The position numbers were made by a program, and so were the translations under genes. Positions 1 through 5,066 of a DNA stretch of 5,066 bases are shown here, in pieces; the first letter of the stretch is position 1; each line of letters begins with the position of its first letter. Below the pieces are notes generated by a model that made no database searches, was not told the origin of the DNA, and saw nothing but the letters and a program-made list of their open reading frames with translations. The DNA is from a bacterium (lineage in GTDB: Bacteria > UBP15 > UBA6099 > JAJRTR01). The stretch spans positions 1 through 5,066 of the forward strand of contig JAJRTR010000004.1 in assembly GCA_024278215.1 (NCBI GenBank). Reading direction: 5' to 3'.

Positions 1-867
1 ATTCCGATAAAGTATCCCGGCATTGAAGTTGCCAGGCGACACCTTGCCAAAATACTCGATATCGAGTTCGTTGATGTTAAATTCGGCTGTTGCCCCGCGC
101 CGACAGGCCTGAAGGAACTTCATTTCGACGCGTGGCTGGCTCTTGCCGCCCGCAATCTCTGTCTCGCCGAGGAAAAAGAACTCGACATCGTCACGCTCTG
201 CTCGGGATGCACAAACACATTGCGTGAAACAAACAGTATTCTCGGCAGAGATGAAAAGAAAAGGCTTTTCGTTCATGACATCCTGGAGAAACACGGCAAA
301 GAGTTTCAGGGCACGATGAAAATATTTCACCTTCCCGCTCTGTTGTCCCAGGACGAATTTCTCGATCTGATAGAAAAGAAAATAGAGCGCCCGCTCGAGG
401 GCATGAGAGTAGGCACTCACTATGGCTGTCACTACTTCAGACCGCATGATATTATGCTGGACGAACAGACCGACCCGGAACACCCGCTGCCCGAACATCT
501 CGAGATTATACTCGAATCGCTCGGTGCCGAAGTGGTCGAGTACAACCGGCAGGACCTCTGCTGCGGCGCGGCCCTTGGGATCAACACAGGAAAATCCGAA
601 GAAGCGCTTCAGATCACCGCCGAAAAACACAACTGTATGAACGAAGCCGGGCTCGACGCGCTTGTCGTTACGTGTCCCACATGTTTCACACAGTTTGATA
701 CCGGGCAAGTACTCATGCGCCGCAAAAACAAGTCGCTTCGTGTATTTCCAATATATCATATCGCCGAGCTTGTCGCCTTTGCGCTTGGCGCCGACCCCGC
801 TCACCTCAATTTAAAAACCCACAAGATAAAAACGAATCTTCCTGTTGAGCCAATTTTAAAATTCTGA
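1..867 (+). CDS. hdrB: Heterodisulfide reductase subunit B-like iron-sulfur protein (CCG domains), 5'-truncated
   Basis: The frame is open from base 1 to the TGA at 865-867, giving 288 visible residues. There is no start, because the window begins inside the gene; the TTG at 220 is internal. Two CCG (cysteine-rich) domains are visible. The first has C30-C31 in GCCPAP and C67-x2-C70 in CSGC; its leading Cys should lie just before the window. The second has C143 in HYGCH, C187-C188 in DLCCG and C225-x2-C228 in CPTC. In methanogen HdrB these cysteines hold two non-cubane [4Fe-4S] clusters that reduce a disulfide. Spacing and length match HdrB with roughly ten N-terminal residues missing. In bacteria such subunits join HdrA and HdrC in flavin-based electron bifurcation or related cytoplasmic complexes. 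The partner genes are probably to the left, unseen. The C-terminal residues PILKF and the stop come from an inserted repeat (847-1025). A succinate dehydrogenase E-type CCG protein is a less likely alternative. Confidence 0.9.
   Translation: MPIKYPGIEVARRHLAKILDIEFVDVKFGCCPAPTGLKELHFDAWLALAARNLCLAEEKELDIVTLCSGCTNTLRETNSILGRDEKKRLFVHDILEKHGKEFQGTMKIFHLPALLSQDEFLDLIEKKIERPLEGMRVGTHYGCHYFRPHDIMLDEQTDPEHPLPEHLEIILESLGAEVVEYNRQDLCCGAALGINTGKSEEALQITAEKHNCMNEAGLDALVVTCPTCFTQFDTGQVLMRRKNKSLRVFPIYHIAELVAFALGADPAHLNLKTHKIKTNLPVEPILKF
843..846 (+). repeat. Target-site duplication, left of element copy 1 (TGTT)
   Basis: TGTT here lies directly before the GAGCC end of the element and is repeated at 1026-1029 directly after its GACTC end. 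Joining base 846 to base 1030 gives CCT GTT GAA TAA TAA in the hdrB frame, a plausible original gene end with tandem stops. That supports reading these four bases as an insertion duplication rather than a chance match. Confidence 0.75.
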
Positions 868-1025
868 TTCGGCTGCGGTCGGCTGCAATTGTCCATAGCT
901 GCGTTGTCGGCACAAAATCTTCCTCGACGTACTCTACAAGTACGCCTGCGGAGATTTTGCACCTCCGTCTTGATTCCGATCAATTTCGCTCGACCTCGCT
1001 TCGAACATAATTTTGCAACTGACTC
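847..1025 (+). mobile_element. MITE-like palindromic element, copy 1 (complete)
   Basis: This non-coding element of 179 bp starts GAGCCAATTTTAAAA and ends with an inward-facing GAGTCAGTTGCAAAA, so its ends are imperfect terminal inverted repeats matching at 11 of 15 positions. The two 73-nt arms (847-919 and 953-1025) align without gaps as an imperfect inverted repeat, best at the tips and at the inner AAAATC/GATTTT. The 33-nt centre holds a stem GTACT/AGTAC (929-933 with 939-943). The direct repeat TGTT flanks it at 843-846 and 1026-1029. It aligns with the reverse complement of 3412-3591 at about 87% identity (hand count), and its left arm with 4994-5066 at 63 of 73 positions. It carries no conserved reading frame. 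A palindromic, short, multi-copy element with flanking duplications fits a MITE moved in trans by an unseen transposase. Confidence 0.85.
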
Positions 1026-1029
1026 TGTT
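1026..1029 (+). repeat. Target-site duplication, right of element copy 1 (TGTT)
   Basis: This is the second TGTT of the pair with 843-846, immediately after the right terminal inverted repeat. The bases that follow (GAATAATAAC from 1030) supply the two in-frame TAA codons of the reconstructed hdrB end. Confidence 0.75.
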
Positions 1030-1198
1030 GAATAATAACTTGCCGCGCCTTGTATCATGGGCATTCCCGCGATTCCAGCCAGCACAGGTGAAGTATGCGG
1101 GATAACGGAAACATCTCCTGAAATATCCGAAAAACCACATGTTTTTTACGCGATGTATTATAAAAACAAAACGCAACAGCTAAAATTAACACATTGTT
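1030..1198 (+). promoter_or_regulatory. Leader region of the VWA gene, weak promoter candidates only
   Basis: This non-coding stretch separates element copy 1 from the VWA gene. The last 60 bases are AT-rich. TATTAT at 1156-1161 could be a -10 box placing transcription about 30 nt before the ATG, but no good -35 box lies 16-18 nt upstream. TTGAAT at 1028-1033 with TGTATC at 1051-1056 (17-nt spacer) is another weak possibility, and it would straddle the element's right edge. No sigma-54 GG-N10-GC promoter, riboswitch or terminator is visible. A 6-bp inverted repeat, TCCCGC/GCGGGA (1065-1070 and 1097-1102), is probably chance. Confidence 0.3.
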
Positions 1199-3349
1199 AT
1201 GGGAATCGACGGATATGAAATAAGGTTGCAGGGGTTGCCGCTCCCTATCATTATCGCGCTTGCCGCGGTAGCTGTTTTCATAGTTATCAGATATTACCGA
1301 TTCCTTAAGGATGTAGGATTTCCGAACCCGGCGGCGCCACTGCTGCTCAGGGCTGTTGCATTCACACTTCTTTTTCTCCTTGCCGCCGGTCCCACTATCT
1401 ACTATGAAAGGAAAGTGCCGGAGGCGCGCAGGCTTGCCGTAATCATCGACACATCACAGAGTATGATGATAGGCGACAGCAGGGGAGTAACCCGAAAACA
1501 GAAAGCATTGCAGGCCTTAAGAGCGATAAGCAAAGCATGGGGCGTCGTGCCCGAACTTTTCACTTTCGATGAGGAACTGGTCAGGAGGGCTTCCATCGAG
1601 GAAATTGAAGGTATTAAGCCCGGAGGCCGGGAAACTCATCTTATTCGTGCTCTGAAAAACATTCCGTCCACCGGTGAAAACCGGATCAGCGACGCGATTG
1701 TAATTACAGACGGAAACGACACTTCAGGTCTGTCGATATCGACGCAGAGCGCTGCGCGGGTACATGTGCTGGGTGCGGGGGATGCCGCGCCGCGACCGAA
1801 TGCAGGACTCTACAGGCTGGAAGCGCCTGAATATGGTTTCGTCGGGTCGCCGGTTGTCGTGCAGGGTGACATTTACGCATCAGACATGCCGGGGGGAACG
1901 GTTATCGGGATCGAACTTTTCGAGGACGGCATAAGGGTCGGCCAGGAAACCCTCGAGTCCGGCGTAGAACCCGGATCACGACAACGGTTTTCTATATCTT
2001 ACGAACCACGGACGCCGGGATACCGTTCGCTGGAAGTCCGACTGAAAACCAGTACCGGGGACGTGATTTTACAGGACAATAAGCGGACACTCTTCATAGA
2101 CATAATCAGCGGCAGGAGGTCAATATTGCTGGTAGACGCGCCGGGCTGGGAGTTCAGGTTTCTGCGCGAATATCTTGAAAGCATCGAGAAGCTGTCTGTA
2201 GATGTGATACTCACCGGGCCGAACGGGAAAACATTCGAGGGCCGGAAACTGCGCGAGAATCTTTCGAACTCCCGCACACTCGGAAAATACAGGCTTATCA
2301 TCGTCGGGCAGGCCGCGAAATTTCTTACGCCGCCGGAGACACGCGCTATTGCACAATATGTGTCGGACGGGGGCCGCATCGTGTCGCTCGGAGGCAGGAA
2401 CGCATTACCGTGCACAGACAATTCACTCGGCAAATCGCTGGGATTCACTTCCGAAAAACCCGGTGGAGACCGGGTTGGTTTCGAGCCGACTCTCACCGAC
2501 ACAGGAGCCAACAGTTTACCCCTGCGATTCGCTCCCGACCGGGAAGCCAACAACCGCATCTGGAAGAATCTGCCGCTTATACAGACAATCTGCATGACGT
2601 CGCCCGGAAAAGACGCCGTCGTGCTCGCTGTGCATCCATGGATGAAGTGCGGCGGCAGTTTGTGCCCGGCTGTTTTTACGAAAACTATCGGGCGCGGGCA
2701 GGCATTCGTTGTAACTTTCGAAGGACTATGGCGATGGCGTTTTCGCCGAAAAGATTCGGAGCATTATGCAACACTATGGGCCGGTGTCCTTACCGAAATG
2801 CTGGAAACGGAGAATCGAAAGCCTGTTCGGATCAGCCTTAAGTCGGACAGCATAATTCTCGGCGGCGAGGCGGCCGTCACGGTGAATGTCGAACCCGGCC
2901 TGCCTGGCGAAAACACCGCCCCGTCGCTCGAAATAAACGGTCCACAAAAGGATTCACACTTTGTACTCGATATGAAAAATGCAAATAATAAAGAACGTCT
3001 GTTCTTCAATGCCATTTATACGCCCGAAAAGGTGGGCTTGTACAATATCAAAGCTGTAGTGGGAAAAAAGGAATCCGAAACACTCAACTTCTATGTATAT
3101 GCGTCACCCGTGGAATTCGTATCAGTCGCACAGAATGAAAAGCTGAACCGTGAGGTCGCGGAAAAACAAGGTGGCTGGTATTACCCCGTCGAACAGGCGA
3201 ACGACCTTATAAAAAAACTTGCGAAAAACATCAACTACAGAGTCGAGCGTGACAAGTTTACTCCATGGTCGTCGCCGTACATTCTATTGCTGATAATACT
3301 GCTGCTGACCGCCGAATGGATTTTCCGCCGCAGGGGCGGCCTCACTTGA
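1199..3349 (+). CDS. Membrane-anchored VWA-domain protein with glutamine-amidotransferase-like domain
   Basis: The protein has 716 residues. Hydrophobic helices at about 13-31 and 46-64 precede a VWA domain (about 78-195). Its metal-ion-dependent adhesion site is readable: D84-x-S86-x-S88 in DTSQS, T146 in GGRETHL, and D171-G172 in ITDGND. A beta-rich stretch (about 205-300) leads into a Rossmann-like, amidotransferase-type region (about 307-535) with LLVDAPGWEFRFLREYL, IAQYVSDGGRIVSLGG and GLWRWRF. No amidotransferase catalytic Cys-His pair is evident. An Ig-like segment (about 541-635) precedes a C-terminal helix at 693-709 followed by RRR. By the positive-inside rule the bulk faces the periplasm. 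This layout recurs in uncharacterised bacterial proteins related to the Bat/MoxR-associated VWA group; no MoxR or Bat gene is visible here. ATG 1199 is the first start after an in-frame TAA at 1187, but it lacks a Shine-Dalgarno. Its role is unknown; binding proteins through the metal site or supporting envelope assembly is inference. Confidence 0.88.
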   Translation: MGIDGYEIRLQGLPLPIIIALAAVAVFIVIRYYRFLKDVGFPNPAAPLLLRAVAFTLLFLLAAGPTIYYERKVPEARRLAVIIDTSQSMMIGDSRGVTRKQKALQALRAISKAWGVVPELFTFDEELVRRASIEEIEGIKPGGRETHLIRALKNIPSTGENRISDAIVITDGNDTSGLSISTQSAARVHVLGAGDAAPRPNAGLYRLEAPEYGFVGSPVVVQGDIYASDMPGGTVIGIELFEDGIRVGQETLESGVEPGSRQRFSISYEPRTPGYRSLEVRLKTSTGDVILQDNKRTLFIDIISGRRSILLVDAPGWEFRFLREYLESIEKLSVDVILTGPNGKTFEGRKLRENLSNSRTLGKYRLIIVGQAAKFLTPPETRAIAQYVSDGGRIVSLGGRNALPCTDNSLGKSLGFTSEKPGGDRVGFEPTLTDTGANSLPLRFAPDREANNRIWKNLPLIQTICMTSPGKDAVVLAVHPWMKCGGSLCPAVFTKTIGRGQAFVVTFEGLWRWRFRRKDSEHYATLWAGVLTEMLETENRKPVRISLKSDSIILGGEAAVTVNVEPGLPGENTAPSLEINGPQKDSHFVLDMKNANNKERLFFNAIYTPEKVGLYNIKAVVGKKESETLNFYVYASPVEFVSVAQNEKLNREVAEKQGGWYYPVEQANDLIKKLAKNINYRVERDKFTPWSSPYILLLIILLLTAEWIFRRRGGLT

Positions 3350-3366
3350 AATTCATGGATTGTGGC

Positions 3367-3407
3367 AAAATCTCCTGACCCGGACGATCCGGAACCGAAA
3401 AGATTTT
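3367..3407. terminator. Terminator-like hairpin between convergent genes
   Basis: AAAATCT (3367-3373) pairs perfectly with AGATTTT (3401-3407), and nested inside is CCGGA/TCCGG (3380-3384 with 3388-3392) around a CGA loop. Short runs of A and T at the outer ends would give a modest U-tract in either direction, so it could end both the VWA transcript, whose stop lies 17 nt upstream, and the regulator transcript from the other strand. Without element copy 2, this hairpin would begin directly at the regulator's reconstructed stop codon. The U-tracts are only four long, so its strength is uncertain. Confidence 0.5.
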
Positions 3408-3410
3408 ATC
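3407..3410 (-). repeat. Target-site duplication of element copy 2 (TATC/GATA), distal side
   Basis: TATC on the plus strand (GATA on the regulator's strand) matches 3592-3595 at the other end of the element. One unmatched base (3411) separates it from the terminal GAGCC. Deleting the element plus one GATA gives AAT AGA TAA in the regulator frame, so the original stop was probably TAA. The extra base makes this pair slightly less clean than that of copy 1. Confidence 0.62.
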
Positions 3411-3411
3411 C

Positions 3412-3591
3412 GAGCCGCTTGCAAAAGTATGTTCGTAGCGCGAGGCCGAACGAAATTGATCGGAGCAAGGCGGAGGTGCAAAATCCCCGCAGGCGTACTC
3501 GCCGAGTACGTTGAGGATGATTTTGTGCCGACAACGCAGCTATGGACAATTGCAGTCGATCACAGCCGAATCGGAATTGTGTAATTGGCTC
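3412..3591 (-). mobile_element. MITE-like palindromic element, copy 2 (complete, inverted)
   Basis: Read on the minus strand, this 180-bp copy begins GAGCCAATTACACAA at 3591 and ends at 3412; read inward on the plus strand from 3412 it gives GAGCCGCTTGCAAAA. The two ends match at 11 of 15 positions and the outermost five bases are a perfect inverted repeat. Its central stem GTACTC/GAGTAC (3495-3500 with 3504-3509) is one pair longer than in copy 1. TATC flanks it at 3407-3410 and 3592-3595, with one extra C at 3411. Its G at 3591 is the last base of the regulator's TAG stop. It sits between the regulator's stop and the shared terminator hairpin. A 74-codon plus-strand frame (3360-3584) runs through it but is not conserved in copy 1. 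Confidence 0.83.
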
Positions 3592-4979
3592 TATCTATTA
3601 TCAATATTGACATTGTATTTTTTCAGCAACCTGTAGAAGCTGCCGCGGTCCATGCCGCTGATGCGCGCGGCGGCTCTCACGTTCCCTTTGCATTTATCCA
3701 GCAAAGTATGCAGGTAATCGAGGGTGAACTGCTCGATCATATTTCTTTTAGCTTCTCTGTATGTAATGGTAACGAGTTCTTCAATATCTTCCGTTTTATT
3801 GCGCTCGATCTTTTCCTTCAGCGGTTTCGGCACGTCGCGCATTCTTATCATCGTGCCGTCGCAGAAGGTGATTATGCTCTCCATCACATTTTCCAATTCG
3901 CGCACATTTCCAGGCCATTCGTAGTTTGAGAAAAGGTTTAAAACATCTTCAGCAATTAACTCTACATTTTTGCCGAGTTTGTCGTTGAACTTGCCGATAA
4001 AATGATCTACAAGCGGCGGGATGTCTTCAAGTCTTTCGACCAGCGGCGGCACATTTACAGTGATTACGTTCAGCCTGTAGAAAAGGTCTTTCCTGAACCT
4101 GCCTTCGGCCACAGCTTTCTCAAGGTTCCTGTTAGTCGCGGCCAGTACGCGGACATTGACGTGCCTGTGAATGCTTTCGCCGACACGCGTGAATTCGCTT
4201 TCCTGTAGGATGCGAAGCAGGCGTGTCTGAAGATGTGGGCTGAACTCACCGATCTCGTCGAGGAAAATTGTGCCGCCGTCGGCTTCCTCGAAATAGCCGC
4301 GTTTGTCGCGGTGCGCACCGGTGAAAGAGCCGCGGGCGTGGCCGAAGAGTTCGCTCTCGAGCAAGCTTTCGGTCAGGGAGGCGCAGTCGACGGTAATAAA
4401 AGGTTTTTCCTTCAGGCGACCGTTGAAATGGATGCCTTTGGCGATGAGTTCTTTTCCGGTACCGCTCTGGCCGGTGATGAGAACTGTGCTGCGTGTGTCC
4501 TTGACCTTGTCCATTATCCGGTACACTTCCTGCATCGCGTCGCCCGAGCCGATAATGTTCCTGAAATCGAACTGTCGTTTTATTTGATTTTTCAGTGCCG
4601 CATTCTCTTCCAGCAGCCTGTTATACTCGATGGCGCGATTGAGCACAACATCGACTTCGTCCAGATTGAAAGGTTTTGCAATGTAATCGAAAGCGCCTTT
4701 GCGCATCGCCTCGACCGCCGATTCGATACTGCTGTGGCCTGTGAAAACGATAACCGGAATGCCGGGATACTTTTCCCTGACTGATTCAAGCAGCGCCATT
4801 CCGTCCATGCCCGGCATGACATAATCCGTTACGACAATATCAGCGCCGCACTCGGCAAGCGCCAGCAGTGCGTTCTCGCCCGAACTGGCGACATCCACCT
4901 CGTACCCTATGCTCTCGAGTCCCTTCGAGAAGCTGTCGAGAATTCGTGCTTCATCGTCAACTAATAAAATTCTTGTCAT
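3591..4979 (-). CDS. Sigma-54-dependent NtrC-family response regulator
   Basis: This 462-residue protein has the full three-part NtrC layout. The receiver (about 3-115) has acidic D8-D9, phospho-acceptor D52 in TDYVMPG, T80 and K102. A short leucine-rich linker (about 116-135) follows. The AAA+ sigma-54 activation domain (about 140-365) has Walker A GQSGTGKE (170-177), the sigma-54 contact loop as GSFTGA (217-222, a natural variant of GAFTGA), Walker B GGTIFLDEIGE (235-245), sensor I ATNRNL (281-286) and WPGNVRELEN (355-364). A Fis-type helix-turn-helix (about 430-456, NVRAAARISGMDRGSFYRLL) ends it. When phosphorylated, such proteins form ATPase rings that open sigma-54 promoters. All key residues are intact. 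ATG 4979 has a good Shine-Dalgarno. No kinase is visible; it may lie beyond the right edge. Element copies sit at both ends of the gene, one at the stop and one beside the ribosome-binding site. The regulated genes are unknown. Confidence 0.95.
   Translation of the reverse strand: MTRILLVDDEARILDSFSKGLESIGYEVDVASSGENALLALAECGADIVVTDYVMPGMDGMALLESVREKYPGIPVIVFTGHSSIESAVEAMRKGAFDYIAKPFNLDEVDVVLNRAIEYNRLLEENAALKNQIKRQFDFRNIIGSGDAMQEVYRIMDKVKDTRSTVLITGQSGTGKELIAKGIHFNGRLKEKPFITVDCASLTESLLESELFGHARGSFTGAHRDKRGYFEEADGGTIFLDEIGEFSPHLQTRLLRILQESEFTRVGESIHRHVNVRVLAATNRNLEKAVAEGRFRKDLFYRLNVITVNVPPLVERLEDIPPLVDHFIGKFNDKLGKNVELIAEDVLNLFSNYEWPGNVRELENVMESIITFCDGTMIRMRDVPKPLKEKIERNKTEDIEELVTITYREAKRNMIEQFTLDYLHTLLDKCKGNVRAAARISGMDRGSFYRLLKKYNVNIDNR
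3592..3595 (-). repeat. Target-site duplication of element copy 2 (TATC/GATA), gene side
   Basis: This is the second member of the pair with 3407-3410. It overlaps the final arginine codon and the first two bases of the TAG stop of the regulator, so the insertion point lies within the stop codon itself. Confidence 0.62.
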
Positions 4980-4987
4980 TTATTATG

Positions 4988-4993
4988 CCTCTT
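4988..4993 (-). promoter_or_regulatory. Shine-Dalgarno AAGAGG of the response regulator
   Basis: On the minus strand AAGAGG lies 8 nt before the ATG at 4979, which fixes the start. Its outer edge directly touches the GAGCC end of element copy 3 at 4994, so all DNA further upstream of the regulator in this window is element. Any promoter must be inside the element or beyond it. Confidence 0.75.
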
Positions 4994-5066
4994 GAGCCGA
5001 TCGCAAAATCCTGATTCTGCTGCGGTCGGCTGCTATTGTCCATAGCTGTGTTGTCGGCGCGAAATC
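4994..5066 (+). mobile_element. MITE-like palindromic element, copy 3 (left arm, cut by window end)
   Basis: It starts GAGCCGATCGCAAAA and aligns without gaps to the left arm of copy 1 at 63 of 73 positions. The window ends where that arm ends (GAAATC). Its tip matches the right tip of copy 2 (GAGCCGCTTGCAAAA) at 13 of 15 positions, which helps define the terminal inverted repeat. Within it, 4995-5005 and 5021-5031 can pair as an 11-bp stem with one G-T wobble. TCTT (4990-4993) is the candidate target duplication; the matching TCTT should follow the unseen right end. It lies in opposite orientation to the regulator, just upstream of it. Confidence 0.8.

Follow-up and report, generated by a model that had tools for sequence, protein, structure and literature searches.

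Three copies of a palindromic repeat in one contig

The window analysed here, the entire 5,066-bp contig C72 of a draft genome (4.55 Mb, 207 contigs, 95% complete), carries three copies of a short palindromic repeat, which raises the question of whether this repeat is a mobile MITE and, if so, which transposase moves it. An earlier note, made from the letters of the window alone, had placed copies at 847-1025, 3412-3591 and 4994-5066, and all three were found there. The first (847..1025, + strand, 179 bp) is full-length and shows 90-93% identity to dozens of full-length copies in the genome. Its left terminal inverted repeat (847..861, + strand) reads GAGCCAATTTTAAAA, with two mismatches to the 15-bp end GAGCCNNTYGCAAAA, and its right one (1011..1025, - strand) reads GAGTCAGTTGCAAAA on that strand; the proposed TGTT target duplication is exact on both sides (843..846 and 1026..1029). 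The second full copy (3412..3591, - strand, 180 bp) lies in the opposite orientation, and copies 1 and 2 are 89% complementary over 126 nt. The TATC duplication proposed for it (3407..3410 and 3592..3595) is present only if one extra C (3411) before the element end GAGCC is skipped, whereas the 4 bp to the left of the proposed boundary read ATCC. Copy 3 (4994..5066, + strand) is partial because the contig ends at that point.

Copy 1 provides the last codons (EPILKF) and the stop of a gene with a CCG domain (Cysteine-rich domain; window 1-867). The sigma-54 response-regulator gene has copy 2 in its stop codon, which is TAG with the element and, judging from the sequence, would read TAA without it. 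On the start-codon side of this gene (window 4979-5066), copy 3 stops 14 bp upstream and adjoins the likely ribosome-binding site, AAGAGG, a proximity that suggests that promoter signals may lie within or beyond the element. These gene-end effects follow as by-products from where the copies inserted; the ORFs crossing the copies are incidental, and the element has no conserved coding capacity.

Copy number and distribution in the genome

Copy 1, used as a query against the genome, returned at least 40 matches at 90% identity or more. The 15-bp end GAGCCNNTYGCAAAA gave 702 matches (at most one mismatch) against nine for the reversed control, indicating about 350 two-ended copies and bearing out genome-wide both the shared terminal inverted repeats and the high copy number predicted from the window. 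An element-profile search of a 1.97 Mb sample (43% of the genome, taken as stretches) detected 192 clusters, 108 of them near-full-length, which made up 1.37% of the sampled DNA and extrapolate to a genome total of ~440, copies and fragments taken together. The family consists of roughly 350-440 copies of a ~180 bp (178-180 bp) element. Paired ends at a spacing of 166-190 bp numbered 101 in the sampled DNA, and shorter derivatives with duplications were also present (46 bp at C6:16952-16997, TATC; 39 bp at C182:13840-13878, TAAT). At C18:1235-2677, two MITE-like elements flank a 1.2-kb stretch with AAAA at both outer sides; the pair could be composite, or the AAAA could be chance within an A run.

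The suggestion that one copy occupies every intergenic space was correct locally, within the window, but not genome-wide, where copies occur about once every 10 kb and occupy about one intergenic space in seven (1,411 between-ORF spaces and 192 clusters in 1.97 Mb). When a simple ORF-based gene set was applied to the sequence with the elements excised, 16 insertion sites fell in ORFs and 84 outside, whereas 86% of random points fell in ORFs; four of the 16 in-ORF insertions lie 5-6 nt from the ORF end. Insertions avoid genes. Copies also account for part of the fragmentation of the draft genome, 27 of the 147 contig ends examined falling inside one.

The element was absent from the 40 other genomes searched, including six of the same order, in which the end-motif counts were close to the control, and no convincing match to the MITE came from collections of plasmids, phages and viruses. 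Within the genome, it is one of several MITE-like families. A second short inverted-repeat family (TTGGAGTGCGGTGATTCATCACCGC ... GCGACAATGAATTGTCGCACTCCAA) was seen at C112:90430-90547, C42:38018-38143, C142:18061-18197 and C200:163-292; another, with ends like GTGGCTGAACGAAAACC, at C42:19763-19889, C43:29193-29524 and in the C22 stretch from 30001 (offset 32390-32725); and a further one, around AATACCGTTTACTTAAG ... CTTAAGTAAACGGTATT, at C186:66718-66851 and in the same C22 stretch from 30001 (offset 13959-14102).

Target duplications

Among the 103 full-length two-ended copies in the 1.97 Mb, 61 were flanked by an exact 4-bp target duplication and 23 more by one with a single mismatch, whereas flanks re-paired by shuffling gave a mean of 2.05 exact 4-bp matches (maximum 8 in 2,000 shuffles). 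Identical flanks of 2, 3 or 5 bp were found in only 2 to 6 of these copies, and of 6 to 9 bp in none; single-base identity also stood out, as expected by chance. The target sites are rich in A+T; the position immediately preceding the 4 bp favours C or T, and the one immediately following favours G or A. The genome-wide comparison thus upheld the 4-bp duplication read from the window: the flanks were far from chance level, and the repeat was not confined to a larger conserved non-mobile unit.

Being intergenic, palindromic and very abundant, the repeat resembles REP sequences, and a non-mobile repeat of the REP/BIME type, spread by recombination and making no target duplication, could look much the same; with 61 of 103 copies exactly duplicated where 2 were expected, this explanation is refuted for practical purposes. 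The matching ends, the 4-bp duplications and the avoidance of genes together identify the repeat as a mobile MITE.

Autonomous elements with the same ends in other bacteria

The ends of the MITE were scanned against 84,980 species genomes, and at least six foreign places were found among the matches listed. End matches numbered 231 in a Terriglobia MAG (control 8) and 85 in Ghiorsea (control 2). In the MAG (OX638355.1), some ends are paired at exactly 1,487 bp and delimit ten full-length ISs, each with an intact transposase of 391 aa and an exact 4-bp duplication. Their terminal inverted repeat, GAGCCTTTTGCAAAATTC, matches one MITE arm at 16 of 18 positions; short same-ended elements are present in that genome too. 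The IS differs from the MITE in being autonomous, in belonging to another phylum and in having an unrelated interior. The Ghiorsea match proved to mark an end of a 161-bp element flanked by CTTC duplications, and a 1,450-bp relative of the Terriglobia IS occurs in Ghiorsea (terminal inverted repeat GAGGTAATTGCAAAACTC, duplication TATG, 59% protein identity between the transposases). Three MITEs of 162-198 bp in a Nitrospirae bin have these ends and are flanked by 4-bp duplications; the bin lacks the transposase in question.

The nearest annotated plasmid relatives, identified through protein similarity and not through their ends, are named in RefSeq as IS1182 family or IS1182-like ISUnCu17. 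ISUnCu17 itself (plasmid NZ_AP026405.1) has the ends GAGCCTCTTGCAAAA / GAGCTTCTTGCAAAA and a 4-bp duplication, ATGA, like the MITE; it differs in its length of 1,483 bp, in encoding a 389-aa transposase and in sharing no interior with the MITE. A second plasmid element annotated as IS1182 family / ISUnCu17 has the ends GAGGCTCTTGC and the duplication TGGT. The best MITE arm matched 16 of 18 positions in the Terriglobia IS, 15 of 18 in the Ghiorsea IS and 14 of 18 in ISUnCu17. A terminal inverted repeat like GAGNCNNTTGCAAAA, by which ends of the IS1182-like ISUnCu17 group are recognised, is present in the MITE as well. A 4-bp duplication was found in all ten Terriglobia ISs and in the Ghiorsea, Aeromonas and Comamonas copies examined, and no clear duplication in the Acinetobacter copies examined. 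The MITE and the ISs have the ~18-bp ends in common, but their subterminal regions were not consistently similar (15 of 16 comparisons with p > 0.05, lowest p 0.032).

The Terriglobia transposase contains the domains DDE_Tnp_1, DUF772 and DDE_Tnp_1_6 (PF01609, PF05598 and PF13751), all above cut-off. In NCBIfam, IS1182 was the best model for all five transposases (80-117 bits; Terriglobia, 117), none of which reached the curated IS1182 cut-off of NF033551 (270 bits); because they score below it, although RefSeq names the relatives IS1182 family and ISUnCu17, they are termed here IS1182-like. Autonomous elements with these ends and a 4-bp duplication encode IS1182-like transposases in other bacteria. 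Some IS1182-family members, IS1272 among them, target palindromes without duplication (PMC5678879), so the 4-bp duplication marks a subgroup.

Search for a partner transposase and proposed origin

No transposase of the ISUnCu17 type was found in this 95%-complete assembly, even with a profile built from five transposases, and DUF772 had no match in the genome. This absence is weak evidence, since such a draft could lack a repeated element of 1.5 kb. The full-length IS with the same ends that had been predicted was found in other genomes (Terriglobia, Ghiorsea), but not in this assembly.

The IS1182 model recovered from the genome only two C-terminal IS1182-like remnants, neither of which matches the ISUnCu17 group, and one of them adjoins a MITE insertion with its own CATA duplication. 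An inverted repeat of ~100 bp with ends GATTCCGGCGCAAAAAGTCC (L095:1787-1888; C62, about 33,370) lies beside an IS1182-like C-terminal remnant, and no 4-bp duplication was seen around it. A pair of perfect ends with a spacing of 1,422 bp (C6:46204-47625) resembled an IS but turned out to be a short derivative, an unrelated gene and an isolated end. Contig ends beside a near-perfect end motif, checked as the borders of a hidden IS, were all MITE copies or chance matches.

In the origin that we propose, all that the MITE would retain of an IS1182-like IS of the ISUnCu17 group is its terminal inverted repeats (GAGCCRNTTGCAAAATT); a transposase of this group, acting in trans, would bind the MITE ends, and insertion into A+T-rich, mostly intergenic targets would generate the 4-bp duplication. 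It is highly probable that the family was derived from, and moved by, such elements. Mobilisation in trans can only be inferred, because the partner transposase was not found in this assembly. A more specific version, which we hold as rather unlikely, is that a family of ~400 copies has lost its own partner transposase entirely and is kept mobile by distant IS1182-like elements that arrive rarely or transiently and recognise no more than the ~18-bp ends.

Ends of the ...TTGCAAAA type might also be shared by chance with a transposase from a different family (IS5 proper or IS6, for example), which would then have moved the MITE. The ends of IS6100 are GGCTCTGTTGCAAA (table in PMC8411920). IS5-type models match the partner transposases too, more weakly than IS1182. 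IS6 elements make 8-bp duplications; the duplication here is sharply 4 bp, and identical 8-bp flanks were found in 0 of 103 copies. The three DDE_Tnp_1 transposases of the genome, considered as partners, lack matching pairs of ends, and the combination of 15-18 bp ends with 4-bp duplications recurs in IS1182-like elements of several phyla, so that a transposase of another family is an improbable source of this movement.

Symmetry, age and host function

The 178-nt consensus aligned with its own reverse complement at a score of 56, compared with -7.4 +/- 7.1 for shuffles (maximum 20), a near-palindromy far above chance. Such a layout would suit a hairpin kept by the host as functional RNA or DNA (terminator, transcript processing or regulation), with mobility as its origin only, and copy 1 does fold better than shuffles (z -2.69). 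Copies are also found close to where genes end or start, as at the final codons of the CCG gene and at the response-regulator stop codon. In the 103-copy alignment, however, only an 8-pair consensus hairpin was recovered, covariation was not above shuffles, and divergence is equal in columns that pair (8.3%) and in those that do not (7.7%). The level of conservation stays even from end to end of the element (0.89-0.94), as in uniform decay, an Rfam search gave no match, and the 40 other genomes, the six of the same order included, held no matches to the family. No host role was detected by covariation, uneven conservation or Rfam matches; a maintained hairpin is therefore very unlikely, and a selfish element is the best reading.

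Mean pairwise identity among the 103 full-length copies was 86.6%, in agreement with the ~13% divergence estimated from the window, and median identity to the consensus was 93.7%. Nearest neighbours are closer (median 95%, up to 98.9%), and nine copy pairs have at least 120 identical bp in common. The family is thus old with some recent movement: the earlier view of an established family holds for its average age, but not as an exclusion of recent activity.

Comparison with known elements and significance

Two MITEs related to the IS1182 family are the closest parallels by description. MITEPye1 of Paracoccus yeei, with IS1182-type ends and 4-bp repeats (PMC11578231), is likewise short, non-coding and intergenic, with a long stem-loop and 18-bp ends like those of the IS1182-family ISPye18, but each chromosome has 1-3 copies of it, whereas the present family numbers about 350-440. 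The 160-bp ISMac2/IS1182-related MITE of Methanosarcina acetivorans (PMC3852290) shares the IS1182 relation, a similar length and 4-bp repeats, and differs in its 14 copies, its 26-bp inverted repeats and its archaeal host.

In abundance, the family is comparable to other repeats. ERIC and Correia elements are also high-copy, intergenic, palindromic and MITE-like, with ends that presumably differ from those of this MITE. ERIC attains up to 711 copies, in Photorhabdus (PMC10969869), and the copy number reported here is thus high but not unprecedented. The MITE family is new and unusually abundant, and otherwise an ordinary genomic parasite.

A repeat without a name can now be assigned to a transposase group. 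The results suggest that IS1182-like elements of the ISUnCu17 type may yield MITEs at ERIC-like copy numbers, and the GAGNCNNTTGCAAAA end motif, linked with a 4-bp duplication across several phyla, provides a simple signature for finding such elements.
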